Source: Mariniflexile sp. AS56 (lineage in GTDB: Bacteria; Bacteroidota; Bacteroidia; Flavobacteriales; Flavobacteriaceae). Taken from it: a stretch of DNA of 64,000 bases. Where the stretch lies: assembly GCF_030552475.1 (NCBI RefSeq), contig NZ_JAUPED010000014.1, positions 1 through 64,000 on the forward strand, in the 5' to 3' direction. This document shows, piece by piece, positions 49,239-62,760 of this stretch. Each line of letters opens with the position of its first letter. The stretch's first letter is position 1. Under the pieces are notes generated by a model. The model saw only the letters and a list, made by a program, of their open reading frames with translations. It did not search any database and was not told the origin of the DNA. Position numbers and translations under genes: made by a program.

Positions 49239-50097
49239 AGAATCGGAATTGATACTAAACCCAGATGGTAGTGTTTACCATCTTAATTTAAAACCAGATC
49301 AAATTGCTGAAACCATCATTTTTGTGGGAGATCAAGATCGGGTTGGGCAAGTATCAAAACACTTTGATCGCATTGATTTTAAAACCCAGAAACGTGAATT
49401 CAAAACGCATACGGGTACTTTAAAGGGGCATCGCATTTCTGTTATTTCAACAGGCATTGGTCCCGATAATATTGATATTGTTGTAAATGAATTGGATGCA
49501 CTTTTCAATATTGATTTGGAAACAAAAACAATAAAAAAGGAATTAACAAGCCTTCAAATTATTAGAATTGGCACTTCAGGCTCTTTACAAAAGGATATTC
49601 CTGTCGATTCTTTTCTGTTAAGCACACACAGTCTCGATCTTAACGGTATGTTGCATGCTTATCAAGTAAACAGCATCAGCCATCCTGATATTGAAGATGC
49701 TTTTATAAAACATAGCAATTGGCACCCAAACAAATCACGCCCTTTGGTTATAGCGAACAGTAAACTACTTGAAACCAAATTGGAAAGCAGTACCATGCAT
49801 AAAGGACTAACGGCTACTGCGGGTGGTTTTTACGGTCCTCAAGGACGTGTGTTACGCTTACCAATCCAAGATGCGGAGTTAAACACTAAAATGGATAACT
49901 TTAATTTTAACGGTATGCGTGTTACAAATTTAGAAATGGAAACATCGGCCATTTATGGGCTTTCAAAACTGTTAGGTCATCATGCGCTATCATTAAACGC
50001 GATTGTTGCTAATAGAGCCGACGGTACTTTTAGTAAAAATCCTTTAGAAACTGTAGAAAAACTTATAACTTATACTCTAAATAAAGTTTTTGAATAA
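49228..50097 (+). CDS. Nucleoside phosphorylase
   Basis: The PNP/UDP phosphorylase fold is evident in FVGDQDRVGQVSKHFDRIDF, the phosphate-binding GIGPDNIDIVVNELDAL, RIGTSGSLQKDIPVDSFLLS and the catalytic end NLEMETSAIYGLSKLLGHHA. The GxGxxN-like and EMET motifs fit the uridine/purine phosphorylase family, which cleaves nucleosides with phosphate. The protein is 289 residues long, somewhat longer than the E. coli enzymes. It overlaps the DUF1835 gene by 11 bp and precedes the solute-binding-like gene by 12 bp. Confidence 0.92.
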   Translation: MPIKESELILNPDGSVYHLNLKPDQIAETIIFVGDQDRVGQVSKHFDRIDFKTQKREFKTHTGTLKGHRISVISTGIGPDNIDIVVNELDALFNIDLETKTIKKELTSLQIIRIGTSGSLQKDIPVDSFLLSTHSLDLNGMLHAYQVNSISHPDIEDAFIKHSNWHPNKSRPLVIANSKLLETKLESSTMHKGLTATAGGFYGPQGRVLRLPIQDAELNTKMDNFNFNGMRVTNLEMETSAIYGLSKLLGHHALSLNAIVANRADGTFSKNPLETVEKLITYTLNKVFE

Positions 50098-50109
50098 ACC
50101 ATTCATTTT

Positions 50110-50964
50110 ATGAAACAAGTAAACATTGGTGGCGTACCAGAACATTTCAACTTAGCTTGGTATTTAACCTTAAAAAATGGGGAATACAAAGAAGAGCAAA
50201 TCAATTTACGATGGCAAGATTATCCTGATGGCACTGGCGCCATGTGTAAAGCGCTTCGAAACAAAGAAATTGATATTGCCGTTATACTCACTGAAGGTAT
50301 TATAAAAGATATTATTGATGGCAACCCTAGTAAAATTGTACAAACCTTTGTGCAAACACCTCTAAATTGGGGTATTCATGTAGCTAACAACTCGCCATAT
50401 AAAACCATTGAAGATTTAAAAGGAACAAAAGCAGCAATTAGTAGATATGGTTCTGGTTCTCATTTAATGGCTTACATCAATGCTGAAAATCATGGTTGGG
50501 ATTTAAAAACCGATTTAAATTTTGAGGTTATAAACGATTTGAGTGGCGCGATTGAAGGCTTAACAAATGGTTCTGCCGATTATTTTATGTGGGAGAAATT
50601 CACCACCAAACCTTTAGTAGATAATGGTACTTTTAGAAGAATAGGCAACTGCCCTACGCCTTGGCCTTGCTTTGTGATCGCAGTACGTGAAGATTTTATC
50701 GAAACTAATAAAGAAGATTTAGAGACCATTTTACGCATTATAAATAACACGACTTCAGAATTTAAAGATATACCGAGTATTGATAGAAACATTGCTAACC
50801 GGTATGAGCAGCAATTGGAAGATGTTCAAGAATGGTTAAGTATTACCGAGTGGTCTCAAAGTTTAATCGATAAAAAAACAGTGACCACCATTCAAAAAGA
50901 ATTGTTTGCTTTGGATATCATTCCAGAAATGGTTTCTTATGAAAAGTTAACACATGTACTTTAG
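50110..50964 (+). CDS. Cytoplasmic type 2 solute-binding-fold protein
   Basis: This 284-residue protein has the two-lobe solute-binding-protein fold: NIGGVPEHFNLAWYLTLKNG, DIAVILTEGIIKDIIDGN, YKTIEDLKGTKAAISRYGSG and NGSADYFMWEKFTTK. It resembles NMT1/THI5 and ABC-transporter substrate-binding proteins. It has no signal peptide or lipobox, and no permease or ATPase gene is near. It is therefore probably cytoplasmic and may be a sensor or an enzyme, as with MqnA/MqnD or THI5 that reuse this fold. It closes the SUI1-DUF1835-phosphorylase operon. Confidence 0.85.
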   Translation: MKQVNIGGVPEHFNLAWYLTLKNGEYKEEQINLRWQDYPDGTGAMCKALRNKEIDIAVILTEGIIKDIIDGNPSKIVQTFVQTPLNWGIHVANNSPYKTIEDLKGTKAAISRYGSGSHLMAYINAENHGWDLKTDLNFEVINDLSGAIEGLTNGSADYFMWEKFTTKPLVDNGTFRRIGNCPTPWPCFVIAVREDFIETNKEDLETILRIINNTTSEFKDIPSIDRNIANRYEQQLEDVQEWLSITEWSQSLIDKKTVTTIQKELFALDIIPEMVSYEKLTHVL

Positions 50965-51009
50965 TTGAGCGTCATTTGACAAAACTAATCAACAGAATAA
51001 CCTTCATTG

Positions 51010-51960
51010 ATGAAAATTAAACCATTTAGAATATCAATACTAGCTTTATTTATATTACTTCTATCTTGTAATACTAAAATTAAAGAGAATCTTAGCCTTG
51101 AAAGTCAATTAAATGAATTGATTAAAAACTTCGACGGCAATGCTCATTTATACGCAGAAAATCTTACAACTGGACAAGTCATAGATATTGAAGCAAGTAG
51201 TATTCATAATGCTGCAAGTGAAGCAAAACTTTACATTTTACTTACTTATGCTGAACAAGTTATTAGCGGCACTTTAGACCCTACCAGCCGAATAACACTA
51301 ACAGAAGAAGATAAAGTTTTAGGTTCCGGTGTGTTGCGTTTCGAAATACTAGGAAACCAAGTTTCACTATCCTTTGTTGCATACTTAATGATGTCTATTT
51401 CTGATAATGTTGCAACTAATATATTATTGAGGGAAGTTGGAGGGATAGAAGCTGTCGATAAATTTTTGAAAAAAATTGGTATTAATGATACCGAAGTAAA
51501 AGGCGAAGTTTTTAAAGGAGATTGGATTTCAACTTCAGCAAAGTCATTGGCAACTGCAGCTCAAATATTAGCACGACCAGAAAAATATGGCTATTCGAAA
51601 AAAGCAGCTGATTTATGCAAAAGCATTATGCTAAAACATTATGAGGATAATGGACTTGCTCGTCATTTGCCTTGGAGTCCATTTGTTGAAGAAGTGACAA
51701 CTATGAAAGCATTCGGAAAATACAAACCAATATACGCTGGTATTGAATTATACGGCAAAGCAGGATTTACGCCAGGTTATCGAGGAGATGTTGCTTATAT
51801 CAAAACATCTAAAAGTGAATATGTTATCGGACTAAAATGTATAAATGTAGATGATTCAAAACCGCTTAATTCGACGAATGCAGGATTTGAATTTTCAGCA
51901 GAAATTGGTAGACTTTTTTATGATTATTGGGGCAAAGATGGAATAGACAAAAGAGAATAA
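51010..51960 (+). CDS. Class A beta-lactamase-related serine hydrolase lipoprotein
   Basis: A lipoprotein signal (ISILALFILLLSC, lipobox Cys20) is followed by a penicillin-recognising fold: S70-x-x-K73 in NAASEAKLYILL, and SDN in SISDNVATNILLREVGG. The usual KTG motif is replaced by KAG (LYGKAGFTPGYRGD), a departure that would weaken beta-lactam binding. I start at ATG 51010; a TTG one codon earlier is not needed. The protein is probably periplasmic and could be a peptidase, carboxypeptidase-like protein or esterase rather than a resistance enzyme. It follows the operon by 45 bp. Confidence 0.85.
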   Translation: MKIKPFRISILALFILLLSCNTKIKENLSLESQLNELIKNFDGNAHLYAENLTTGQVIDIEASSIHNAASEAKLYILLTYAEQVISGTLDPTSRITLTEEDKVLGSGVLRFEILGNQVSLSFVAYLMMSISDNVATNILLREVGGIEAVDKFLKKIGINDTEVKGEVFKGDWISTSAKSLATAAQILARPEKYGYSKKAADLCKSIMLKHYEDNGLARHLPWSPFVEEVTTMKAFGKYKPIYAGIELYGKAGFTPGYRGDVAYIKTSKSEYVIGLKCINVDDSKPLNSTNAGFEFSAEIGRLFYDYWGKDGIDKRE

Positions 51961-52132
51961 AAACGAACGCACAACAATGTACATTAAAAATTATTAGTTT
52001 TACATTTATCAATGTAAGCAAACAAACACGCAACCCAGTAAAAACATAACCAATAAATGTTAATGTTAATCAAAATTACCACCTAAAAAATATTAAATAT
52101 TTACTTTTGAGTTTCAAAAATTAAACAAACAC

Positions 52133-53164
52133 ATGAAAAAACTACTATTACTAACAGCTGCTATTGCATTAATTGCTTGTAAAGAAGAACCTAAAGATTA
52201 TGTTACATTATCTGGAAAAATAACAGACAAGAGTAGTGACTCGGTTGTTGTGAGATCACGCACGTTTTCAAAAACAATTAAAGTGAATACAGATGGTACT
52301 TTTAGCGATACATTAAAAGTGGCAGCGGGTGTTTATAATTTTTATGATGGTAGTGAATCTACCAACCTATTTCTTAAAAATGGTTTCGATATTAACATTA
52401 CTGTCGATACTAAAGAGTTTGATGAGTCTGTAAAATACACAGGCTTAGGTTCAGAACACAGTAGTTTTTTGGCTAAAAATAGTTTAATGCAAGAAAAACT
52501 TTTAGATATTGATGCTTTAAGTAATTTGGATATGACTGGTTTGGATGCTAAATTCAATGAAATAAAAACGAGTTTAACGGAGTTTTATAATGCCAATAAA
52601 GATATTGATAGTTCTATAATTAATGGATTATCTAAAAATATAGACCCGATGTTGAATTACTATAAAGGCTATATATCTGAATCTATTGCCTTAAAAACAG
52701 AGTTAGCAAAAGGATCGCCATCACCAACTTTTAAAGATTATGAAAACTATAAAGGTGGTAAAACATCTTTATCAGATTTAAAAGGAAAATATGTGTATGT
52801 GGATGTTTGGGCTACTTGGTGTGGACCATGTAAAGTAGAAATACCCTCATTAAAAGCCTTAGAAAAACAATATCACGGAAAAAACATTCAATTTGTGAGC
52901 TTATCTATTGATGATGATAGAAGTCATGGTAATTCTTGGGATAAAGCACGTGCCGATTGGAAGGCTATGATTGCCGACAAAAACTTAGGTGGGATTCAAC
53001 TTTTTGCTCCAAACGGATGGCAATCGCAGTTTGTGGTAGATTACAAAGTAAAAGGGATTCCTAGGTTTATTTTAATAGACCCAAATGGGAATGTGGTAAC
53101 ACCAGATGCTCCAAGACCATCAGACCCAAGTTTAACAGAATTATTTACTTCATTAAATATTTAG
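52133..53164 (+). CDS. TlpA-like thioredoxin lipoprotein
   Basis: A lipoprotein signal (LLLLTAAIALIAC) is followed by a DUF4369-like N-terminal domain (about 20-130) with beta-rich LSGKITDKSSDSVVVRSRTF. The C-terminal thioredoxin domain (about 200-343) has the redox motif WATWCGPCKVEIPSLK (CGPC), and the cis-proline region VKGIPRFILIDPNGNVV. Such proteins act in the periplasm as thiol-disulfide reductants, for example in cytochrome maturation or oxidative protection. The gene is monocistronic and ends 40 bp before a strong terminator hairpin. Confidence 0.92.
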   Translation: MKKLLLLTAAIALIACKEEPKDYVTLSGKITDKSSDSVVVRSRTFSKTIKVNTDGTFSDTLKVAAGVYNFYDGSESTNLFLKNGFDINITVDTKEFDESVKYTGLGSEHSSFLAKNSLMQEKLLDIDALSNLDMTGLDAKFNEIKTSLTEFYNANKDIDSSIINGLSKNIDPMLNYYKGYISESIALKTELAKGSPSPTFKDYENYKGGKTSLSDLKGKYVYVDVWATWCGPCKVEIPSLKALEKQYHGKNIQFVSLSIDDDRSHGNSWDKARADWKAMIADKNLGGIQLFAPNGWQSQFVVDYKVKGIPRFILIDPNGNVVTPDAPRPSDPSLTELFTSLNI

Positions 53165-53203
53165 ACTACTTAATATAAAACATAGCCTTGCGAGGTTAAA
53201 ATT

Positions 53204-53247
53204 AAGCCACGAATACACTAATAGAATTGTGTGTTCGTGGCTTTTTT
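53204..53247. terminator. Bidirectional terminator between TlpA-like and nnr genes
   Basis: The 15-bp stem AAGCCACGAATACAC (53204-53218) pairs with GTGTGTTCGTGGCTT (53229-53243) with one T-G wobble. A T tract follows on the + strand and an A/T tract on the other. It sits between two convergent genes. Confidence 0.88.
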
Positions 53248-53251
53248 AATT

Positions 53252-54820
53252 CTACTTTTTCTGCTTCTTATTTTCAACCGTTTCCTCTGGCTGTACAGGC
53301 GGTTGCTCTGGTTGTTTAAATAGATCTTTATACGCTTCTCCAAGAAATTCGATAACATGACTAGAAATCAAACTTTGATAACCATAATCTTCAATGGCTA
53401 TATCTCCCGATTTCCCATGTAAATAAACGCCAAAAACACTAGCATCGAGAGCACTATAGCCTTGCGCTATTAAACCTGTTATGATACCCGTTAATACATC
53501 GCCACTTCCTGCAGTTGCTAAACCAGGATTTCCTGTTGAATTCACATATAACTTCTCTTGAAATACCGTTATACTATGAGCGCCTTTAATTATAACAATT
53601 AAGTTGTGCTTTTTAGAGAAGGCTTTCGCTTTATTTATTTTATCAAAGTCATCTGTCCATTTTCCTAGTAAACGCTCTAATTCTTTAGGGTGTGGCGTTA
53701 AAATGGTTTGTTCTGGCAGTAATTTTAAAAACGTCTTATTCTTTCCCAAAATATTAATACCATCGGCATCTATAACCAGTGGGGTTTTATTCATTTTTAA
53801 AAAGGCTTCAAAAGCTTCAACTGTTTCTTTATCTGTGCCCGCTCCTACTCCAAAAGCAATAACCGTTGGTTTTATTTTGAAACTAATATTTGTTGTTTTT
53901 TCATCGTTTACATCTGTGAGCACCATAGCTTCTGGAAATGCGCTCTGCAAAGGTATATAGCCGCATTTAGGAACATAGGCCGTAACCAAACCTGCCCCCG
54001 AACTTAAAGCCGCTCTACTCGCTAAAGTAACGGCTCCTATTTTACCATAACTACCACCAATAATTAAGCAATGTCCAAATTCGCCTTTATGCGAAAATTT
54101 ATCTCTAGGTTTATAAATGGGCAACATTTCATGTTTCCCTATTAGTTCCACTTGGGTTTCCGTTGCAGATAAAAACTCGGGATCTAAACCAATATCTAAA
54201 ACTTCCCATTGCACTGTGTATTTTGCTGTATCAGGTAAAAAGAACACCAATTTGGGTGTTACAAAACTTAAAGTGTAACCAGCCCAAACCACAGCATCTT
54301 CATCTTTAGGAACACTGTCTGTTTGCAAGCCTGAAGGAATATCAATCGATAAGGTGAAAGCTTTCGATTTTTTAAAATGAATAAATAAGCCTTTTACCCA
54401 TGCATCTACGGGTCTATTCAGTCCAATTCCAAAAATGGCATCAACAATAATATCTTCAGGGTTAATTTCCGGAAAATCTTCTTCACAACTTAAAAGCGTT
54501 GGCCATTGTTTCGTAACGTTCTTGATTCTATCATAATTAATTAAAAAATCTTTAGATCGTTTGTCGCTACAATTTACAACATAGGTTTTAACATTGTAAC
54601 CATCTAAAATTAAATGTCTCGACAAAACCAAACCATCCCCTCCATTATTCCCGATGCCGCAAAACACATGAATAGGCACTTGCGCACCTTGTAAACGCAC
54701 ATGCATCCAATTGAAAATTTGTGCACCGGCACGTTCCATTAAGTCGGTTGAAGATATATTTTGACGCGAAACAGTGAGAGCATCTCCTTGGTAAATTTGT
54801 TCTTTTGAGAAAATTTTCAT
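53252..54820 (-). CDS. nnr: Bifunctional ADP-dependent NAD(P)H-hydrate dehydratase/NAD(P)H-hydrate epimerase
   Basis: The N-terminal YjeF_N epimerase domain (about 1-215) has IHVFCGIGNNGGDGLVLSRH and DIPSGL. The C-terminal carbohydrate-kinase-like dehydratase domain (about 230-500) has KGEFGHCLIIGGSYGKIGAV, LTPHPKELERLLG and NPGLATAGSGDVLTGIITGL. Together they repair damaged NAD(P)H hydrates using ADP. The 522-residue length and domain order match Nnr of E. coli. A Pro/Glu/Gln-rich tail ends in NKKQKK. It is monocistronic. Confidence 0.95.
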   Translation of the reverse strand: MKIFSKEQIYQGDALTVSRQNISSTDLMERAGAQIFNWMHVRLQGAQVPIHVFCGIGNNGGDGLVLSRHLILDGYNVKTYVVNCSDKRSKDFLINYDRIKNVTKQWPTLLSCEEDFPEINPEDIIVDAIFGIGLNRPVDAWVKGLFIHFKKSKAFTLSIDIPSGLQTDSVPKDEDAVVWAGYTLSFVTPKLVFFLPDTAKYTVQWEVLDIGLDPEFLSATETQVELIGKHEMLPIYKPRDKFSHKGEFGHCLIIGGSYGKIGAVTLASRAALSSGAGLVTAYVPKCGYIPLQSAFPEAMVLTDVNDEKTTNISFKIKPTVIAFGVGAGTDKETVEAFEAFLKMNKTPLVIDADGINILGKNKTFLKLLPEQTILTPHPKELERLLGKWTDDFDKINKAKAFSKKHNLIVIIKGAHSITVFQEKLYVNSTGNPGLATAGSGDVLTGIITGLIAQGYSALDASVFGVYLHGKSGDIAIEDYGYQSLISSHVIEFLGEAYKDLFKQPEQPPVQPEETVENKKQKK

Positions 54821-54953
54821 GTGTAGATTGTATTTTTAATCAACACTAATATTACGCATTTTTAAATTTTAAATCAAACAGAAGTTTATATAATGAAAAA
54901 AAACTTAACTAAAATAGCTAAGGATTTACAAGCGTTTTTTGAAAAGCAATTTC

Positions 54954-55601
54954 TTACTCTTTAATAAATTTTATTATATCAAGATCGTCTAACTTTAAAA
55001 GATACATGCCGTTTTCCAAAAAGCGGACATCAATTTTATTATTGTAAGACACTGTGCCTCTTGCCAATTCTTTCCCTGTCATACTGTAAATAATATAGTT
55101 TTTGGTATCCATCAACCCTGATAAACTAATATAACTAGTTGAAGGATTGGGGTATGTTTTAATTCTCGTTTTTAAACTAACATCAATATTCGATTGCGTA
55201 CTCGTGTCTATCGTGCTTAAGTTTCCATAAAATACACCACCATCTGTGATGGTGAAAGACCGAATGTAATACATGGAATTAGCTGTTAAATCTACTAATT
55301 TATGGGTGAAAGACCCGCCTATTGATTCTGTAATTATCTTAGTATCTAAAACAGTAGGTAGGGTTTCAGAAGTACTAAAAACGAATCCACTTTCTAAAAT
55401 TACCGCATCTTTGGTGTCTGCGATTTCTCCCATCAAATCAATCGTATCTAAAGTATGGTTTAATACTGCTGAACCACTAATGTTGGGCGCTTCATTTTTT
55501 GAGGTAGTTGCAATCTCTTGGGCTAATTTTGGACTGTCTTGAGCGTGCATAAACACAACGAACAACAAGCACAGTAAAGTACATTTTCTTTTTGAGAGCA
55601 T
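54954..55601 (-). CDS. Secreted protein with type IX secretion C-terminal sorting domain
   Basis: A signal peptide (TLLCLLFVVFMHAQ) starts at ATG 55601; a longer frame from 55673 lacks one. The middle is a fibronectin-like fragment, HTLDTIDLMGEIADTKDAVI to MYYIRSFTITDGGVFYGNLS. The last 80 residues are the Por/type A sorting domain: TRIKTYPNPSTSYISLSGL, YIIYSMTGKELARGTVSYN and FLENGMYLLKLDD. That domain sends the protein through the type IX system for surface anchoring or release, with C-terminal cleavage. The gene is small (215 residues), and its binding partner is unknown. Confidence 0.88.
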   Translation of the reverse strand: MLSKRKCTLLCLLFVVFMHAQDSPKLAQEIATTSKNEAPNISGSAVLNHTLDTIDLMGEIADTKDAVILESGFVFSTSETLPTVLDTKIITESIGGSFTHKLVDLTANSMYYIRSFTITDGGVFYGNLSTIDTSTQSNIDVSLKTRIKTYPNPSTSYISLSGLMDTKNYIIYSMTGKELARGTVSYNNKIDVRFLENGMYLLKLDDLDIIKFIKE

Positions 55602-55949
55602 TTGGGATGAGGTTTTGAAGAGACTTATATTAATTACCGGTACAAATATGCGAAAACCTTTATTTTCTAACACATTTAATCATGTAAATATGATTTTAAA
55701 CGATATAATTTAACAAATATTGTTAAAAGTGAACACTAATTTCAGTGTTACGCATTCACAAAACCAAATGAGGCATAAAGGTACACTTTAAAACCCCTTC
55801 TAAATTATTATAGATTTTTCAATACATATTTTAAATAGTCGTTTTTCTTAAACGAAACTTGTATGAATATAAGAATAACGTAAAAAAGGATTTTTAATTT
55901 TTTTATAAGTTTAAATGTGATATTTTTGAATTCTATTATTATAGATATA
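55602..55949. other. Intergenic region upstream of the thr leader
   Basis: No gene is seen. It holds two short inverted repeats: TAACAA-ATA-TTGTTA at 55711-55725 and AACACT-aatttc-AGTGTT at 55732-55749. A -7 element (55921-55928) comes before the thr leader peptide. The inverted repeats could be operators for the divergent T9SS protein gene or the thr operon. Confidence 0.45.
55921..55928 (+). promoter_or_regulatory. Bacteroidota -7 element TATTTTTG of the threonine operon
   Basis: TATTTTTG matches TAnnTTTG and lies 21 bp upstream of the leader peptide ATG, which gives the leader a short untranslated region, as expected for an attenuator. No strong -33 motif is seen. Confidence 0.5.
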
Positions 55950-56057
55950 ATGAATCATTTAAGCCAAAATACAAATACAACTGTTTCTTTTTCAACAAAA
56001 GAAACCACGTTTATTTTTGGTACAACTACAATTATTACAACCCTTTGGGGTTGCTAA
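55950..56057 (+). CDS. thrL: Threonine operon leader peptide
   Basis: This 35-codon frame has 11 threonine and 3 isoleucine codons, dense at the end (GTTTIITT followed by LWGC and a stop). It precedes thrA by 170 bp on the same strand. Such Thr/Ile-rich leader peptides upstream of threonine operons mark ribosome-mediated attenuation, as with E. coli thrL, though the sequences are unrelated. The last Thr codons and the stop overlap a GC-rich hairpin (56038-56053). The ribosome would stall at Thr or Ile codons when those aminoacyl-tRNAs are scarce. It is too short for usual ORF calling. Confidence 0.85.
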   Translation: MNHLSQNTNTTVSFSTKETTFIFGTTTIITTLWGC

Positions 56058-56100
56058 TTATATATTCTTCGGGTTATCTTTGTGGTTTTTATAATCACAA
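56002..56100 (+). promoter_or_regulatory. Attenuator region of the thr operon with alternative hairpins
   Basis: Three pairings are possible. CAACCC (56038-56043) with GGGTTG (56048-56053) forms a compact stem across the leader's end. TTGTGGTT (56080-56087) with AATCACAA (56093-56100) forms a later stem followed by a moderately T-rich stretch. AAACCAC (56002-56008) is complementary to GTGGTTT (56082-56088), so it competes with the later stem. Which pairing forms would depend on the stalled ribosome. A TATCTTTG at 56075-56082 also matches a -7 box, so an internal promoter is an alternative reading. Confidence 0.5.
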
Positions 56101-56227
56101 CATCTTTAATATTTTATTTAAATCATCAATTCAATAAAACATGCACCTTCCATATTGAGGTTTCGAAATCAAAAGAAAAAATTATATGGAAATAACATGT
56201 GACTGACAAAAAAATAAATAAAAACAC

Positions 56228-58672
56228 ATGAAAGTTTTAAAATTTGGAGGAACTTCTGTAGGTTCTTCAAAAAACATAAATAATGTTATTAGCATTTTAG
56301 AGAATTATGCTGAAAAGGATAAAGTAGTATGTGTTGTATCGGCAGTTGGCGGTATTACAGATAAATTACTTTTAGCGGGAAAACAAGCTCAAAATAAAGA
56401 CACTACCTATATTGAAACCTTTAATTTAATTAAGGATATCCATTTTAACGTGGTTAATGAACTTAATCTAGGAAAGAGCTCATCCATCATCCCTTTTATT
56501 GATGATAAACTAAATGCCCTTAAAAGTTTGTTAGACGGTATCTTTTTAATAAATGAACTGTCTCCAAAAACTTCTGATAAATTAGTGAGTTTTGGTGAAC
56601 TATTATCATCTTATATTATTGCTGAAACCATGAAAAACCGTGAGTTATCTGCCGATAGTAAAAACTCACAAGATTTGATAGTTACTAATTCTAATTTCAC
56701 AAAAGCGGAAGTAGATTATGCTATAACAAATAAAAATATTCAATCGTATTTTAATTCAGCAAGTCAACAAATTACCGTGCTTCCTGGTTTTATCTCTAGA
56801 TCTAAAATAGGAGAACAAACCACTTTAGGTCGTGGAGGATCTGACTTTACAGCCGCCATTGTTGCTGCCGCCTTAAAGGTTGAACAGTTGGAAATTTGGA
56901 CCGATGTAAGTGGTATGTACACTACCAACCCAAAATTGGTTAAACAAGCCTACCCTATCGATAAAATATCCTATCAAGAAGCGATGGAATTATCGCATTT
57001 CGGCGCTAAAGTATTGTATCCACCAACGGTGCAACCCGTTTTAGATTTGAATATCCCTATTCACATTAAAAATACTTTAGAACCAGAAGCTGCAGGAACG
57101 GTTATCTCTAACGAAGAAACTTTTTCTTCTTCACCTGTAAAAGGCATTAGTAACATTGGAAATATTGCTTTACTAACGCTTCAAGGAAGTGGTATGATTG
57201 GTATTCCTGGTTTTTCTAAACGTTTGTTTGAAACACTTTCACAGGAAAAAATAAACATCATTTTAATTACGCAAGCCTCTTCAGAGCATTCTATTTGTTT
57301 AGGTATTGATGAAAATGATGCTGAATTAGCTCAAACAGCTATCGATGCTGCCTTCGAAAATGAAATTGCTTTACATAAAATTGATCCTATTATAGTTGAA
57401 AAAGACTTGTCTATTATCGCTTTAGTGGGTGATAACATGAAAAATCACCAAGGTATTAGCGGTAAAATGTTTAGTACTTTAGGGAAAAACAACATTAATA
57501 TTAGAGCCATTGCTCAAGGGGCTTCAGAGAAAAATATTTCAGCTGTTATTTTACAAAGCGATGTTAAAAAAGCGTTGAACACACTGCACGAACAATTTTT
57601 TGAAACCAAAACAAAACAACTTAATATTTTTATTACTGGTGTTGGAAATGTGGGAGAAAAATTAGTTGAACAAATAAAACAACAACGTAAATACCTAAAA
57701 GAAAACTTAAAAATCAACTTACGAATTGCGGGATTATCCAATTCTAGAAAAATGATTTTTAGTGAAGATGGTATCGATCTAACTAATTGGAAAGAACAAT
57801 TAGAAAATGGTGAGCAAGCGACTTTAGACGGCTTTTTTGAAAACACAAAAGCTTTAAACCTTCGCAACAGTATTTTTGTAGATGTCACTGCAAACAAAGA
57901 AGTTGCTGGTTTATATGAAAAATATTTACGACAAAGTATTGGTGTAGTCGCTTGTAACAAAATTGCATGTTCTAGCGATTATGAAAACTACACCTTATTA
58001 AAACGATTATCGTTAAAATACAATGCGCCTTACCTATTCGAAACGAATGTGGGTGCTGGGTTGCCAATTATAGACACTTTAAACAATTTAATAGCTTCGG
58101 GTGATAAAATCACATCGATCCATGCAGTATTATCTGGAAGTTTAAATTTCGTGTTTAATAATTTCAATGATACAACTAAATTTTACGATGTTGTAAAACA
58201 AGCTGCTGCAGAAGGTTACACAGAACCAGACCCAAGAATCGATTTAAGTGGTGTCGATGTAGCCAGAAAAATACTAATTCTTGCTAGAGAAAGCGGTGTT
58301 GAAATGAATTTAGAGGATATTGAAAACACACCATTCTTATCAGATTCTGGAATGAAAAGTGACTCGGTAGACGATTTTTATCAAACACTTATTAAAGACG
58401 AAGCACATTACCAAGGTTTATATGCTTCCGCGAAAGCGAAAGACTGCCAATTAAAATATGTGGCTCAATTTAATGATGGTAAAGCAAACGTGAGTTTACA
58501 GGAAATACCAAGCGACCACCCGTTTTATAACCTACAAGGAAAAGATAATATCGTTATGTTTTACACGCAACGCTACCCAGAACAACCTATGATTATTAAA
58601 GGTGCTGGTGCTGGTGCAGAAGTAACTGCTTCTGGTTTATTTGCTGATATTATTAGAGTTGGAAACGATTAA
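56228..58672 (+). CDS. thrA: Bifunctional aspartate kinase/homoserine dehydrogenase I
   Basis: The aspartokinase domain (about 1-290) starts with KFGGTSVGSSKNI, with TTLGRGGSDFTAAI and WTDVSGMYTTNP. Two ACT regulatory segments lie at about 310-460 (ITQASSEHSICLGI and INIRAIAQGASEKNISAV). The homoserine dehydrogenase domain (about 465-814) has the NAD(P) fold ITGVGNVGEKLVEQI and VLSGSLNFVFNNFN with PDPRIDLSGVDVARK. The enzyme commits aspartate to lysine/threonine/methionine. Length and order match ThrA/MetL fusions. ACT domains suggest feedback by threonine. It is the first structural gene of the operon. Confidence 0.96.
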   Translation: MKVLKFGGTSVGSSKNINNVISILENYAEKDKVVCVVSAVGGITDKLLLAGKQAQNKDTTYIETFNLIKDIHFNVVNELNLGKSSSIIPFIDDKLNALKSLLDGIFLINELSPKTSDKLVSFGELLSSYIIAETMKNRELSADSKNSQDLIVTNSNFTKAEVDYAITNKNIQSYFNSASQQITVLPGFISRSKIGEQTTLGRGGSDFTAAIVAAALKVEQLEIWTDVSGMYTTNPKLVKQAYPIDKISYQEAMELSHFGAKVLYPPTVQPVLDLNIPIHIKNTLEPEAAGTVISNEETFSSSPVKGISNIGNIALLTLQGSGMIGIPGFSKRLFETLSQEKINIILITQASSEHSICLGIDENDAELAQTAIDAAFENEIALHKIDPIIVEKDLSIIALVGDNMKNHQGISGKMFSTLGKNNINIRAIAQGASEKNISAVILQSDVKKALNTLHEQFFETKTKQLNIFITGVGNVGEKLVEQIKQQRKYLKENLKINLRIAGLSNSRKMIFSEDGIDLTNWKEQLENGEQATLDGFFENTKALNLRNSIFVDVTANKEVAGLYEKYLRQSIGVVACNKIACSSDYENYTLLKRLSLKYNAPYLFETNVGAGLPIIDTLNNLIASGDKITSIHAVLSGSLNFVFNNFNDTTKFYDVVKQAAAEGYTEPDPRIDLSGVDVARKILILARESGVEMNLEDIENTPFLSDSGMKSDSVDDFYQTLIKDEAHYQGLYASAKAKDCQLKYVAQFNDGKANVSLQEIPSDHPFYNLQGKDNIVMFYTQRYPEQPMIIKGAGAGAEVTASGLFADIIRVGND
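58424..58442. repeat. REP-like palindrome inside thrA (CTTCCGC-gaaa-GCGAAAG)
   Basis: Arms CTTCCGC and GCGAAAG differ from a perfect inverted repeat by one base. The element is more G+C rich than its surroundings and is read as ASAKAKD in thrA. It looks like a small mobile palindrome that stayed in frame, but this rests on appearance only. Confidence 0.35.
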
Positions 58673-58701
58673 TCAATAAATAATTAATAATAAAAGGAAT
58701 C

Positions 58702-58755
58702 TTAGTTTTTACAAACTAAACATGACTATTGCCAGTTCGAGCGCAATCGAGAACT
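58702..58755. repeat. REP-like element between thrA and thrB
   Basis: A hairpin TTAGTTT-ttac-AAACTAA (58702-58719) is followed by TTGCCAGTTCGAGCGCAATC and GAGAACT (58729-58755), in which AGTTC and GAGAACT pair imperfectly around GAGCGCAATC. This shape recurs as an intergenic repeat in flavobacterial genomes in my recollection. It lies 6 bp before the thrB ATG. Confidence 0.5.
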
Positions 58756-58760
58756 ATTAA

Positions 58761-59690
58761 ATGAACGAAATGAACGAAATTAAATTATTTTCACCAGCAA
58801 CTGTGGCCAATGTGGCTTGTGGTTTTGATGTTTTAGGTTTTTGCTTAGACAGTGTTGGTGATGAAATGGTGATTAGAAAAATCGATAAAAAAGGAATTTA
58901 CATTACTAAAATTGAAGGATTCGATTTGCCATATGAAGCCGAATTGAATGTTGCAGGGGTTTCCGCTTTAGCGATGTACGAAGCTGCTAAACCAGATTGC
59001 GGATTTGAAATTGAAATCTACAAAAATATAAAACCTGGTAGCGGTATTGGAAGCAGTGCCGCGAGTGCCGTTGGTAGTGTTTTTGGGATGAATGAACTTT
59101 TAGGAAGTCCTTATACAAAAACTCAACTAACTGAATTTGCAGTTAAAGGGGAAGCTTTAGCGAGTAAATGTGAGCATGCTGATAATTTAGCGCCTGCCTT
59201 GTTTGGTGGTTTTACCTTAGTTAAAAGTATGACACCATTAGAGATTTTGGAAATTCCATCTCCAGATGATTTGTTCGCCACAATCATCCATCCTCAAATA
59301 GAAGTAAAAACATCGGAGGCCAGAGCCATACTTCCTAAAGAAGTATCACTAACCAATGCCATAACGCAGTGGGCTAATTTCGGGAGTTTAATTCACGCCT
59401 TACATACAAGTGATTATAGTTTGATTCAAAAATCGCTACACGATGTGATTGTAGAGCCTTTTAGAAGCCAGTTGATTCCTCATTATAACGATGTGAAAAC
59501 CGCAGCCTTAAAAGCAGGAGCTTTGGGTGGTGGTATCTCAGGGTCAGGCCCTTCAATATTTACTTTAAGTAAAGGTATTGAATCTGCTAAAAAAGTGGCA
59601 GATAGCATGAATGATGTTTACTCCAAAACAGGAATAGCGTTTGATATTCATATATCCAAAATTAATACTGAAGGCGTTAAGATAATTTAA
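58761..59690 (+). CDS. thrB: Homoserine kinase
   Basis: This is a GHMP kinase of 309 residues. The ATP-binding motif is PGSGIGSSAASAVGSVFGMN, the N terminus FSPATVANVACGFDVLGF is typical of ThrB, and the C terminus GGGISGSGPSIFTLSKG is the third conserved motif. It phosphorylates homoserine for threonine synthase. Translation can start at ATG 58761 or at 58770; the first is used here. It is 88 bp downstream of thrA, with a REP-like element filling most of that gap. Confidence 0.96.
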   Translation: MNEMNEIKLFSPATVANVACGFDVLGFCLDSVGDEMVIRKIDKKGIYITKIEGFDLPYEAELNVAGVSALAMYEAAKPDCGFEIEIYKNIKPGSGIGSSAASAVGSVFGMNELLGSPYTKTQLTEFAVKGEALASKCEHADNLAPALFGGFTLVKSMTPLEILEIPSPDDLFATIIHPQIEVKTSEARAILPKEVSLTNAITQWANFGSLIHALHTSDYSLIQKSLHDVIVEPFRSQLIPHYNDVKTAALKAGALGGGISGSGPSIFTLSKGIESAKKVADSMNDVYSKTGIAFDIHISKINTEGVKII

Positions 59691-59703
59691 GCTAGGAGAC
59701 TGA

Positions 59704-59749
59704 TGAAGAATGATGTCATTGCGAAAGAGGCACGACTGAAGCAATCTCT
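59704..59749. repeat. REP-like element between thrB and thrC
   Basis: The sequence has GTCATTGCGAAAGAGG near 59713-59729 and GAAGCAATCTCTT near 59737-59750. It pairs as ATTGCGA-type arms with GCAAT, an arrangement widespread as an intergenic repeat in bacterial genomes. It occupies the gap after the thrB stop. Confidence 0.5.
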
Positions 59750-59792
59750 TCAAAGAAAACATTGAATTAAAATATAATTACTAACAAACAGC

Positions 59793-59810
59793 TTCCTGTT
59801 TAGGCAGGAA
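59793..59810. repeat. Hairpin repeat TTCCTG-tttagg-CAGGAA
   Basis: A 6-bp perfect stem lies 11 bp before thrC. It resembles short flavobacterial palindromic repeats and may fold in the transcript to affect thrC translation or mRNA stability. This is a third element in the thr operon gaps. Confidence 0.4.
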
Positions 59811-59820
59811 TAAGAGAATC

Positions 59821-61113
59821 ATGAACTACTACTCACTCAACCATAAAGCACCAAATTCGACTTTTAAAAATGCCGTTATAAAAGGGCTTGCACCTGATAA
59901 AGGTTTGTATTTCCCTGAATCGATAACACCACTTCCTAAAACCTTTTTTGATAACATTGATAATTTATCATATTCGGAAATTGCTTTTGAAGCGATTAAA
60001 CAATTCGTGTCTCCAGAAATTCCTGAAGCCATATTAAAAACTATTGTTGAAGAAACTTTATCATTCGATTTTCCTGTTGTAAAATTAAACGATTCTATTT
60101 CTACTTTAGAGTTATTTCACGGACCAACCATGGCGTTTAAAGATGTAGGCGCGCGGTTTATGGCACGTTGTTTAGGCTATTTTAACCAAGACAATGATAG
60201 AGAGGTAACTGTTTTAGTGGCAACTTCTGGTGATACGGGTGGCGCCGTAGCTAATGGCTTCTTAGGTGTTAAGGGCGTAAACGTCGTTATTCTTTACCCT
60301 AGCGGAAAAGTAAGTGATATTCAAGAAATGCAATTAACGACGCTTGGGCAAAATATAAAAGCCTTGGAAGTAAATGGCACCTTCGATGATTGTCAGGATA
60401 TGGTTAAAACAGCGTTTTTAGATGAATCCCTAACCAACAACATGCAATTAACTTCTGCAAACTCTATAAACGTAGCGCGTTGGTTACCGCAATTGTTTTA
60501 TTTCATGTTTGCTTACAAACAATTACATAAAGAACACAAAGAGATCGTTTTTTCAGTACCAAGCGGAAATTTCGGTAATGTTTGCGCCGGTATGATGGCA
60601 CAGAAATTAGGTTTACCTATTAGCCATTTCGTTGCTTCAAATAATGCTAATAATGTGGTAACTCGTTATTTAGTATCTGAGTTATACGAACCAAAACCAT
60701 CCGTGCAAACAATAAGTAATGCGATGGATGTAGGAGCGCCAAGTAACTTCATTCGTATTCAAGAAATCTATAAAAACAATTTCAGTAGTCTAAAAGAAAA
60801 CCTTTCATCTTATAGTTTTTCAGATGAAGAAACAAAAGCGGCTATGCTAGAAATATTTGAAAACTACAAATACGTAGCCGATCCACACGGAGCTGTTGGT
60901 TATTTAGGTTGTAAGGCCTATTTAAAAGAAAACGCAAACGCACATTGTGTGTTTTTAGAAACCGCACATCCAACTAAGTTTTTGGATGTTGTAGAAGCTG
61001 TTATAAAAGAAGAGCAACCGTTACCGGAGCAAATTCAATCGGTTATGGGAAGAGAAAAAGAATCTGTAGTGATTTCAACTTACGACGATTTAAAAAGCTA
61101 TTTATTACAATAA
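59821..61113 (+). CDS. thrC: Threonine synthase
   Basis: The 430-residue enzyme is PLP-dependent, fold type II, of the ThrC class I group. The PLP lysine is in LFHGPTMAFKDVGARFMARC. Phosphate binding is by SGDTGGAVANGF, and NFGNVCAGMMAQKLGLP with DPHGAVGYLGCKAY mark the C-terminal half. It converts phosphohomoserine to threonine, the last step of the operon's pathway. It ends just before a palindromic terminator. The 130-bp gap to thrB contains two REP-like elements. Confidence 0.96.
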   Translation: MNYYSLNHKAPNSTFKNAVIKGLAPDKGLYFPESITPLPKTFFDNIDNLSYSEIAFEAIKQFVSPEIPEAILKTIVEETLSFDFPVVKLNDSISTLELFHGPTMAFKDVGARFMARCLGYFNQDNDREVTVLVATSGDTGGAVANGFLGVKGVNVVILYPSGKVSDIQEMQLTTLGQNIKALEVNGTFDDCQDMVKTAFLDESLTNNMQLTSANSINVARWLPQLFYFMFAYKQLHKEHKEIVFSVPSGNFGNVCAGMMAQKLGLPISHFVASNNANNVVTRYLVSELYEPKPSVQTISNAMDVGAPSNFIRIQEIYKNNFSSLKENLSSYSFSDEETKAAMLEIFENYKYVADPHGAVGYLGCKAYLKENANAHCVFLETAHPTKFLDVVEAVIKEEQPLPEQIQSVMGREKESVVISTYDDLKSYLLQ

Positions 61114-61133
61114 AAAACACCAAACTAAATATA

Positions 61134-61163
61134 AAAAATGCCATGAAATTTCATGGCATTTTT
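61134..61163. terminator. Perfect palindromic terminator AAAAATGCCATGAAA/TTTCATGGCATTTTT
   Basis: A 30-bp perfect palindrome with A and T tracts lies 21 bp after thrC and 29 bp before the convergent Dabb gene stop. It should terminate transcription from both directions. Confidence 0.92.
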
Positions 61164-61191
61164 AGTTTAATAAGCTTTCATTTTATAGCAC

Positions 61192-61506
61192 TTAAATAAT
61201 ACTCTTACTATCATAAACCAACACTTTATCCCACAAATGTTGGTTGTTTTCTACAAATTTTAGATGAATGGGATGTGCTTGATATATAGCCTCGTCAGCT
61301 TCACTTAGAAAGGTAAGCATCTCTGTTACTGAAAAACTGTTATCCACAACATCTCGTTTTTCAGTTGAAGCGGGTATTCCTACATGAATATCTTCAACTT
61401 CAGGTATCGATTTTAAGGTTTTAATCCCTTCAATAAGTTGTTTTTTATCTGTTTCTGATTTCGGGTTTTTCAACCAAAAAAAGACGTGATGTACAAGTGG
61501 TCCCAT
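61192..61506 (-). CDS. Dabb family protein (stress-responsive alpha/beta barrel)
   Basis: The 104-residue protein is a single Dabb domain. It opens with MGPLVHHVFFWLKNPKSETD, then a helix KQLIEGIKTLKSIPEVEDIH, and ends with YQAHPIHLKFVENNQHLWDK. The family forms dimeric ferredoxin-like barrels and includes olivetolic acid cyclase-like proteins and plant stress proteins; the bacterial function is mostly unknown. The His residues in HHVFFWL are typical. The gene is monocistronic and converges on thrC. Confidence 0.9.
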   Translation of the reverse strand: MGPLVHHVFFWLKNPKSETDKKQLIEGIKTLKSIPEVEDIHVGIPASTEKRDVVDNSFSVTEMLTFLSEADEAIYQAHPIHLKFVENNQHLWDKVLVYDSKSII

Positions 61507-61622
61507 AGTTCATTTTTTTTACTAAAATATAAAAGAATTGAAACATACACATTTAGAAATAGAGTTCATTTGAATCGAAAAATTTAACCATACTTTTTTA
61601 TTAAGAATCTTTTGATTTTATG

Positions 61623-61630
61623 TAGCTTTG
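61623..61630 (+). promoter_or_regulatory. Bacteroidota -7 element TAGCTTTG of gcvT
   Basis: TAGCTTTG matches TAnnTTTG and lies 47 bp upstream of the gcvT start. The intervening leader has no glycine-riboswitch structure that I can see. Confidence 0.5.
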
Positions 61631-61677
61631 TTGATTAATCATCATAATAAAACCGTATTTTTTAGTAAAACTCTAAT

Positions 61678-62760
61678 ATGAAAAACACAGCCTTAACAAA
61701 AACTCACGAAGCCCTTGGTGCAAAATTAGTGCCTTTTGCAGGTTTTAACATGCCCGTACAATACGAAGGTGTCACTGCAGAACACGAAACCGTTAGGAAA
61801 GCCCTTGGTGTTTTTGACGTATCGCACATGGGTGAATTTTTAATTGAAGGAGAACATGCATTAGAGCTTATTCAAAAAATATCAAGTAACGATGCTACCA
61901 AATTAACTATTGGTAAGGCACAGTATAGCTGCATGCCAAATGAAACTGGTGGTATAGTCGACGATTTAATTATATACCAAATTAAAGATCAAACCTATTT
62001 ACTGGTAGTAAACGCTGGTAATATTGAGAAAGATTGGAACTGGATATCGTCTAAAAACACCATGGGTGCTACCATGCGCGATTTAAGTGAAGAGTATTCC
62101 TTATTGGCTATTCAAGGGCCTAAAGCGGTTGAAGCCATGCAAAGTTTAACCAGTCACGATTTGTCTGCCATTAATTTTTACAATTTTGTTGTCGGCGATT
62201 TTGCGGGCATTGAAAATGTTATTATTTCGGCAACTGGTTACACAGGTAGTGGAGGTTTTGAAATTTATTGCAAAAACAGTGAGGTTAAACAAGTTTGGGA
62301 CCAAGTATTTGAAGCTGGAAAAGATTTTGGCATCAAACCAATTGGTTTAGCTGCTCGTGATACCCTGCGTTTAGAAATGGGATATTGCCTTTACGGAAAC
62401 GATATTAACGACAGCACCTCGCCTATTGAAGCAGGTTTGGGATGGATTACTAAGTTCTCAAAAGACTTTACAAATTCCGAAGCATTAAAAAAGGAAAAAG
62501 AACAAGGTCCAGAACGTAAATTGGTCGCTTTTGAACTTGATGAACGCGGTATTCCACGTCACGACTATGATATTGTAGATGGCAACGGAAACAAAATAGG
62601 TGTTGTAACATCAGGCACCATGTCTCCAAGTGTTGGTAAAGGTATTGGTTTGGGTTATGTTCCTACTGTTTTTACTTCCGTTGGCAGTAAAATCTACATT
62701 CAAATACGTAAAAACGCGATACCTGCAACGGTTATAAAACTACCGTTTTACAAAGGTTAA
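61678..62760 (+). CDS. gcvT: Glycine cleavage system aminomethyltransferase (T protein)
   Basis: The T protein of 360 residues is complete. It has [20 protein letters not shown] at the start, [20 protein letters not shown], and [19 protein letters not shown], with [20 protein letters not shown] near the folate site. With GcvP, GcvH and Lpd it oxidises glycine and forms 5,10-methylenetetrahydrofolate. The other genes are not adjacent, as is common in Bacteroidota. It is followed after 1 bp by glsA, implying co-expression. Confidence 0.96.

Follow-up and report, generated by a model that had tools for sequence, protein, structure and literature searches.

The threonine operon of Mariniflexile sp. 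AS56 is preceded by a short open reading frame rich in threonine and isoleucine codons that runs into an RNA hairpin, and the same arrangement recurs upstream of thrA across Flavobacteriaceae and in other Bacteroidia. We consider this region to be probably a ribosome-controlled leader of the thr operon, in which starvation would block the hairpin, the hairpin would lower expression, and the off state would be reached without a U-tract terminator. The element was found in a 64,000-nucleotide stretch of DNA, referred to here as the window, in which a three-gene operon follows the leader, all on the forward (+) strand. NCBIfam models identify thrA (56228–58672; bifunctional aspartate kinase/homoserine dehydrogenase I, NF006959, 1040 bits) as its first gene, followed by thrB (58761–59690; homoserine kinase, NF002288 and TIGR00191) and thrC (59821–61113; threonine synthase, TIGR00260). 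The leader ORF occupies 55950–56057 on the same strand and encodes MNHLSQNTNTTVSFSTKETTFIFGTTTIITTLWGC followed by a stop codon. It has 35 codons, of which 11 are for Thr and 3 for Ile, grouped near its end, and its stop lies 170 nt before the thrA start at 56228, all as described in an original prediction made from the DNA letters of the window. The terminal codon run ACA ACT ACA ATT ATT ACA ACC (56022–56042, + strand) adjoins the first of two hairpins, H1.

Comparison across relatives indicates that the leader peptide is real and conserved. A Thr/Ile-rich ORF running into H1 was found in 133 of 181 regions upstream of thrA (referred to here as rows), drawn from Flavobacteriaceae and other Bacteroidia, while none of 1,810 dinucleotide-shuffled regions and three of the 181 reverse strands passed the same finder. 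The first set comprised the top 80 thrA loci from named genomes, 71 of which have leader and hairpin (72 of 81 counting the window itself); the nearest of these loci are from two Mariniflexile, at 93% identity. A second set, drawn from Flavobacteriaceae genomes with no match to R1, a covariance model that represents the near form, contains the element in 56 of 80 regions, and in a third set, from other families of Bacteroidia, it is present in five of 20. At least five second-set regions repeat first-set contigs (L155/L073, L160/L081, L162/L085, L166/L091 and L172/L099), and without these there are at most 176 distinct regions and 131 positives; the rows are related to each other and are not independent. 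Running the conservation check proposed with the original prediction thus left it standing, with the Thr/Ile codons, the upstream promoter and the two hairpins all recurring in relatives.

The finder failed in 48 of the 181 regions, including nine first-set loci that have no leader (L069, L080, L084, L085, L087, L091, L093, L096 and L099). Four of these nine (L080, L084, L085 and L093) have the promoter sequence TAnnTTTG only 40–46 nt upstream of thrA, and the leader therefore appears to be dispensable in some lineages. Two further loci, L174 and L202, have the hairpin, yet fall below the Thr/Ile threshold and are uncounted among the 133. Model R1 was built from an alignment (A2) of 50 of the 72 first-set rows, the 22 excluded being near-duplicates or having no H2 or a different one, and it matches 63 of 299 Flavobacteriaceae genomes at E-values up to 0.01. 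A second alignment and model (A3 and R2) use 75 of the 133 rows; removal of ten odd rows and of near-duplicates left 82, and a further seven, in which a motif described below was hard to align, were then taken out. Given this selection of rows, R1, R2 and the test of the H1 flanking pairs lean towards the pattern.

Codon usage in the leader points to amino acid sensing. Over the 12 codons upstream of the ACC of H1, Thr accounts for 33% and Ile for 20% of in-frame codons in the 133 leaders, counts inflated by the modest Thr/Ile score that the finder requires; the other two frames of the same stretch give 1.8% and 0.5% Thr and at most 3.2% Ile, and control DNA gives 4.7% Thr and 8.8% Ile. The highest frequency is at the codon just before ACC, which is Thr or Ile in 91% of leaders, while Thr is found at codons –5 and –6 in 53% and 47%, respectively. 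An ATG-started in-frame ORF reaches H1 in 70 of the 72 first-set rows, and in the other two (L034 and L037) a GTG stands by eye where the rest have ATG. Many first-set peptides start with MNHLNQN or similar, and end with TTTxxTTLWGC or similar. As read from its codons, the leader ORF carries a run for the end product of the operon that it precedes, as the leader ORFs of ribosome-mediated attenuators of the thr/his/trp class do.

The explanation to which we give least credence is that the ORF senses no amino acid and serves only to enhance translation or to let ribosomes re-initiate on thrA. Such a role has been proposed in general for leader genes located some 10–16 nt before a gene (PMC4833913), but the gap between leader stop and thrA is 170 nt in the window and 69–105 nt in the middle 80% of the 133 rows (median 82 nt), and the run of Thr and Ile codons would be left unexplained.

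Compared with most relatives, the window has roughly 88 additional nucleotides between leader and thrA, at 56141–56230, and this extra sequence is one copy of a repeat that occurs dispersed. Bounded by an old ATG (56141) and by the thrA ATG, it contains inverted CTTCCAT/ATGGAA-type stretches and finishes with GTGAC...AAAAACACATG. Elsewhere in the genus there are seven copies, each about 100 nt long, at 70–74% identity, and closing with an ATG; one is apparently in tandem (by eye). The repeat may be mobile, with start codons as its target. The AS56 genome also codes for a second bifunctional aspartate kinase/homoserine dehydrogenase-like gene (C49:158375-160777), with 36% identity to thrA over residues 1–812, and has two shorter aspartate kinase matches as well.

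Upstream of the leader ORF is a –7 promoter element, TATTTTTG (55921–55928, + strand), that corresponds to the consensus TAnnTTTG and recurs in relatives; the consensus and its position at –12 to –5 are given in PMC6847099 and PMC9723704. The transcription start is predicted to be at about 55933. TAnnTTTG is present 5′ of the leader ORF in all 72 first-set rows and in 124 of the 133 overall, compared with 13.0 expected from shuffles, and is mostly 16–23 nt from the ATG (118 rows measured). The upstream motif in these 124 rows would place the leader ORF within the operon transcript. The original prediction had pointed to a second –7-like sequence, TATCTTTG at 56075–56082, as a competing explanation for part of the region; the site does exist, but it fails as a conserved feature, with TAnnTTTG present in that interval in 21 of 133 rows. 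That the thrA operon is transcribed from this internal site, leaving the upstream ORF outside the thrA transcript, we regard as very unlikely, even though TATCTTTG fits the consensus and such sites are commoner in the interval than the 3.6 expected from shuffles: the upstream promoter is found in 124 rows and the internal one in 21, and the last bases of the internal site fall within the 5′ arm of the second hairpin, H2, which is kept by pairing. The leader is thus probably not a promoter artefact.

H1 (56038–56053, + strand) consists of CAACCC (56038–56043) and GGGTTG (56048–56053) separated by a TTTG loop, exactly the stem that had been proposed, with the last Thr codon in its 5′ arm, followed by the stop codon. 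The 133-row comparison does revise the earlier picture in one respect, in that H1, which overlaps the end of the ORF, is the most constant structure of the leader, with a mean predicted pairing of 0.98 in 122 rows. It takes the form ACCC-GGGT or ACCCC-GGGGT, with 30 spellings among the 133 rows, and the last Thr codon supplies the start of its 5′ arm. The residues encoded at H1 vary – LWG, PWG, RLG, LRG, PLG and others – and the stop codon is located anywhere from 6 to 30 nt after ACC (at 6 nt, inside H1, in 15 of 133 rows), so it is the RNA, and not the end of the peptide, that is conserved. The CCC/GGG core is nearly invariant and shows no covariation. Among the 75 selected rows, 44 have A-U as the next pair outside this core, 13 have C-G, and 18 have no pair there. 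The signal from the flanking pairs is weak: 85% of their cells are paired, a level that 18 of 500 shuffles attain, and the covariation score is reached by six of 500 shuffles. L254 and L255, both from one other family, have a Thr-rich ORF that leads into an ACGGG/CCCGT hairpin in which the strands are exchanged and the stop codon is in the loop (by eye).

H1 is followed by a linker (56054–56079, + strand) that the pairing profile of relatives predicts to be single-stranded. Positions +4 to +29 after H1 have an unpaired probability of 0.55–0.75, compared with 0.47–0.54 in shuffles (means over 122 of the 133 rows, 11 long-spacer rows being excluded). Within the linker is a pyrimidine-rich motif, TTCTTCG (56065–56071, + strand), whose G is 21 nt past the last G of H1. 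Motif counts show that YYC(S)G is present in the tested interval of the linker in 77 of 133 rows, against 24.6 expected, and is not found there in the other 56. A slightly wider interval raises the number to 80, the G being 21–23 nt after H1 in 65 or 66 rows with a greedy or non-greedy pattern, respectively; TCCGT alone is found in 24 of 133 rows, compared with 2.4 expected. Because the position of the stop codon varies over 6–30 nt, the motif is spaced from H1 rather than from the stop.

The motif may also be the partner of the H1 3′ arm in an alternative structure. If the H1 5′ arm is absent, the G run is predicted to pair with positions +14 to +26 at a mean probability of 0.55 in near rows and 0.47 in far rows, compared with 0.17 and 0.19 in shuffles. 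This pairing is short and often includes G-U pairs, and by this prediction H1 and the G-run:motif pairing would be mutually exclusive structures. In these models the downstream pyrimidine-rich motif is the more likely alternative partner of the H1 3′ arm, rather than H2.

A different role for the motif, pairing with G-rich early codons of thrA and thus translational control, was tried and rejected. Complementarity between the motif and the thrA start (–6.21 for matched sequences) is not above that of shuffled sequences (–6.26) or of mismatched species (–6.52), in a comparison that took the motif as the only partner. This counts against translational attenuation (of the erm/cat class), in which the leader ribosome would refold an RNA structure concealing the thrA start, and translation would be switched rather than transcription. 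Such a mechanism would suit a leader that lacks a terminator, and we consider it unlikely.

H2 (56080–56100, + strand) is formed by TTGTGGTT (56080–56087) and AATCACAA (56093–56100) around a TTTAT loop. This second stem had also been predicted and is in place, and it covaries in 50 selected near relatives, its fifth pair being A-U in 32 and G-C in 13. For H1 and H2 together, these 50 rows have 32 cells in which both sides of a pair have changed, mostly in H2, compared with 11.2 in shuffles and lower values in slid controls; the joint covariation score is reached by none of 500 shuffles, the 22 excluded of 72 rows including many without H2. Some of the 133 rows have only a weak H2 or none, and a second hairpin beats shuffles at p up to 0.05 in 76 of them, 53 of the 72 near rows and 23 of the 61 far ones. 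In distant rows its position is kept more than its sequence, and the mean profile of 122 rows has a paired arm at +31 to +37.

The third pairing in the original prediction, AAACCAC/GTGGTTT in competition with H2, did not survive comparison and is present as a pairing in the window only. Among the 72 near rows, AAACCAC occurs in the leader of the window alone, and GTGGTTT after H1 in the window and in L025 only. Pairing of the leader codons with the H2 5′ arm was similarly rejected as a conserved switch: among 56 near rows with a clear H2, leaders score 12.52 with their own arms and 12.59 with those of other rows, compared with 11.54–11.61 for shuffles. The corresponding values for leader codons and the H2 5′ arm are 11.57 against 11.09 in shuffles for all 133 rows, and 12.58 against 11.66 for the near clade. 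A column-pair scan of the 72-row alignment placed two chance-looking pairs and an H2 pair in its top four, and was not used for any conclusion.

Two scans found no intrinsic terminator between the leader ORF and thrA in the window, in agreement with the lack of a T-rich terminator remarked on at the outset. The his and trp leaders of AS56 differ in this respect. Before hisG, the leader MNFIQSHHHHFQICLQAK (L151 on contig C12) forms a his attenuator of classical form, with an HHHH run and a terminator of –16.5 kcal/mol, and matches no Rfam family with an E-value of 0.1 or lower. The trp leader (MKSILNNTWWWSFLNLRFVK, before trpE; L235 on contig C14) has a WWW run and a terminator of –15.0 kcal/mol, and matches Rfam Bacteroid-trp (RF01692) at 58.9 bits, above the cut-off of 49; three consecutive Trp codons and a strong terminator characterize the trp leaders L234, L235 and L237–L239. 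Five Thr leaders from other Bacteroidia (L217, L224, L257, L262 and L263) also have terminators, of –12.7 to –21.2 kcal/mol, and in each an upstream stretch can pair with the terminator 5′ arm at –10.5 to –16.2, values obtained with no shuffle control. Terminator-like sites are present in L069, L249 and L261 as well, where no Thr-rich leader is visible, and these are uncounted.

Several observations made alongside concern other leaders. L241, from another family, apparently has two tandem Trp leaders, each with a hairpin and T run (by eye), and a Flavo-1 RNA (RF01705, 57.4 bits) is located near trpE in the AS56 genome (L235 2874-2954, – strand). No leader with a clear Ile/Leu/Val run was seen in the ilvD upstream regions that were read; in three genomes of the genus (L141–L143) a tiny conserved ORF, MNLTLNKKD or close to it, lies some 160 nt upstream of ilvD.

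The his and trp leaders and the terminator-type thr leaders fit the use of ribosome attenuation in these bacteria, and since H1, the motif and H2 stand where those leaders have a terminator, their position suggests that they are the output element. They also make it reasonable to ask whether the thr leader is simply a classical transcription attenuator, as in enterobacteria, with a weak or unrecognised intrinsic terminator made of H1 or H2 and an AU-rich tract. L263 resembles Rfam Thr_leader, although at 36.5 bits (E = 0.001) it is below the cut-off of 55, and H1 is followed by at least six T in eight in 10 of 133 H1-type rows. Nonetheless, the window has no terminator-like site, 123 of the 133 rows fail even this loose rule, and the ten passes are due to H1 itself. 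H2 as an intrinsic terminator was rejected as a general rule: its stem is AU-rich, the T tract is not constant, and in many distant rows the DNA that follows is A/C-rich (by eye). The classical scheme is therefore unlikely, and we return to a terminator-free leader under ribosome control.

In the mechanism that we propose, a shortage of Thr-tRNA (or Ile-tRNA) would cause the leader ribosome to stall on the last Thr/Ile codons, where its front edge would cover the H1 5′ arm and block H1; the freed G run would be available to pair with the pyrimidine motif, and expression of thrABC would follow. When threonine is plentiful, the ribosome would complete the ORF and leave, H1 would form, and expression would fall. 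The stalled ribosome is taken to be the on state because the operon makes threonine, an assumption from pathway logic. A ribosome covers about 12 nt ahead, a value given for a stop codon in PMC4833913, so that the H1 5′ arm should be covered wherever among the final three or four Thr/Ile codons the stall occurs. The opposite polarity, in which a starved ribosome stalls further upstream and formation of H1 is the on state (e.g. by pause release or blocked Rho loading), seems quite unlikely to us; by geometry a stall at codon –5 or –6, both often Thr, should leave H1 free, but Thr/Ile frequency peaks at the codon adjoining H1, where a stalled ribosome would cover the hairpin. The ribosome-coupled attenuation envisaged in the original prediction accordingly carries over in its first part, a Thr/Ile leader peptide under probable ribosome control with recurring codons, promoter and hairpins, and not in the AAACCAC/GTGGTTT competition.

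The output step, that is the effect on thrA expression, is the least certain part of the scheme. The off state could involve RNA polymerase pausing at YYC–G, factor-assisted (Rho-type) termination, or both, with no U-tract terminator. With polymerase pausing at the C of YYC–G, H1 would be just out of the enzyme. On geometric grounds, a ribosome on the last Thr codon would be some 30–34 nt behind a polymerase paused at this site, and spacings of 26–34 nt have been used for collided ribosome-polymerase pairs (PMC10953045). Only tentatively, as a reading that is plausible yet short of probable, do we suggest that these leaders make up a separate class of ribosome-controlled attenuator that lacks a terminator and is widespread upstream of thrA among Bacteroidia. 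In this class the stalled ribosome would mask H1 about 20 nt behind a YYC–G pause site and touch the paused polymerase, with pause escape or factor-assisted termination deciding the outcome.

The element appears to be tied to thrA. Over 60 genomes of the family, all 23 matches to model R2 (H1 and motif) at E up to 0.0024 are located before thrA, and there are many weaker matches. Twelve R2 matches were inspected, the adjoining genes being assessed from their initial residues alone: seven show a leader and are followed by a gene that starts like an aspartate kinase, and the other five (L266 at E = 0.0042, with L267, L268, L274 and L277; E = 0.0042 to 0.076 across the five) are elsewhere with no leader. 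A search of the AS56 genome with model R1 for a second copy found only the thrA site, the next match having an E-value of 9.3. A general amino acid element was considered and rejected, five weaker R2 matches having no leader and R1 finding a single genomic site.

A search of 4227 Rfam families gave no match in 50000–62000 of the window at E up to 1, including to Thr_leader, T-box and other leaders, and the H1-type loci L025 and L229 have no Thr_leader match at E up to 0.1. Thr_leader (RF00506) of enterobacteria precedes the same operon and likewise encodes a Thr/Ile-rich leader peptide, with ribosome stalling as the sensor. The leader described here differs from it in having no terminator, an unrelated peptide, a Bacteroidota promoter, and a hairpin that starts with the last Thr codon. 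It shares with Bacteroid-trp (RF01692) and the his leader of its own genome a run of codons for the regulated amino acid, but not their strong terminators, and with the five terminator-type thr leaders a Thr/Ile peptide before thrA, terminators in those leaders replacing H1, motif and H2. The pyrBI attenuator of E. coli is alike in that a ribosome near a hairpin stops the hairpin from forming, although there the distance between ribosome and polymerase and a real terminator are used, and there is no run of codons for its product.

Earlier surveys of attenuation by Vitreschak and others (2004) and Lopatovskaya and others (2010) reportedly may hold predictions for Bacteroidetes. Leader peptide attenuation already has a known example in the phylum in Bacteroid-trp (PMC2864571), and 'strong clues' for it have been described before amino acid operons of Flavobacterium psychrophilum, a member of the same bacterial family, the 5′ elements named in the accessible text being those of pheA and hisG, and not thrA (PMC9723704). 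The literature on attenuation in Bacteroidota that was covered, with subscription papers mostly and supplements wholly outside it, yielded no account of a thrA leader.

In textbooks, the mechanism of leader peptide attenuation is defined by its terminator, and here, in many genera, what is probably the same sensor is coupled to a different output element, in a phylum with no Shine-Dalgarno sites and a divergent promoter. The presence of terminator-type thr leaders in the same class means that two designs can be compared on one gene. The leader would also provide a natural system for the study of transcription-translation coupling in Bacteroidota, in which precise, testable predictions follow from the distances between the Thr codons, the hairpin and the putative pause site.
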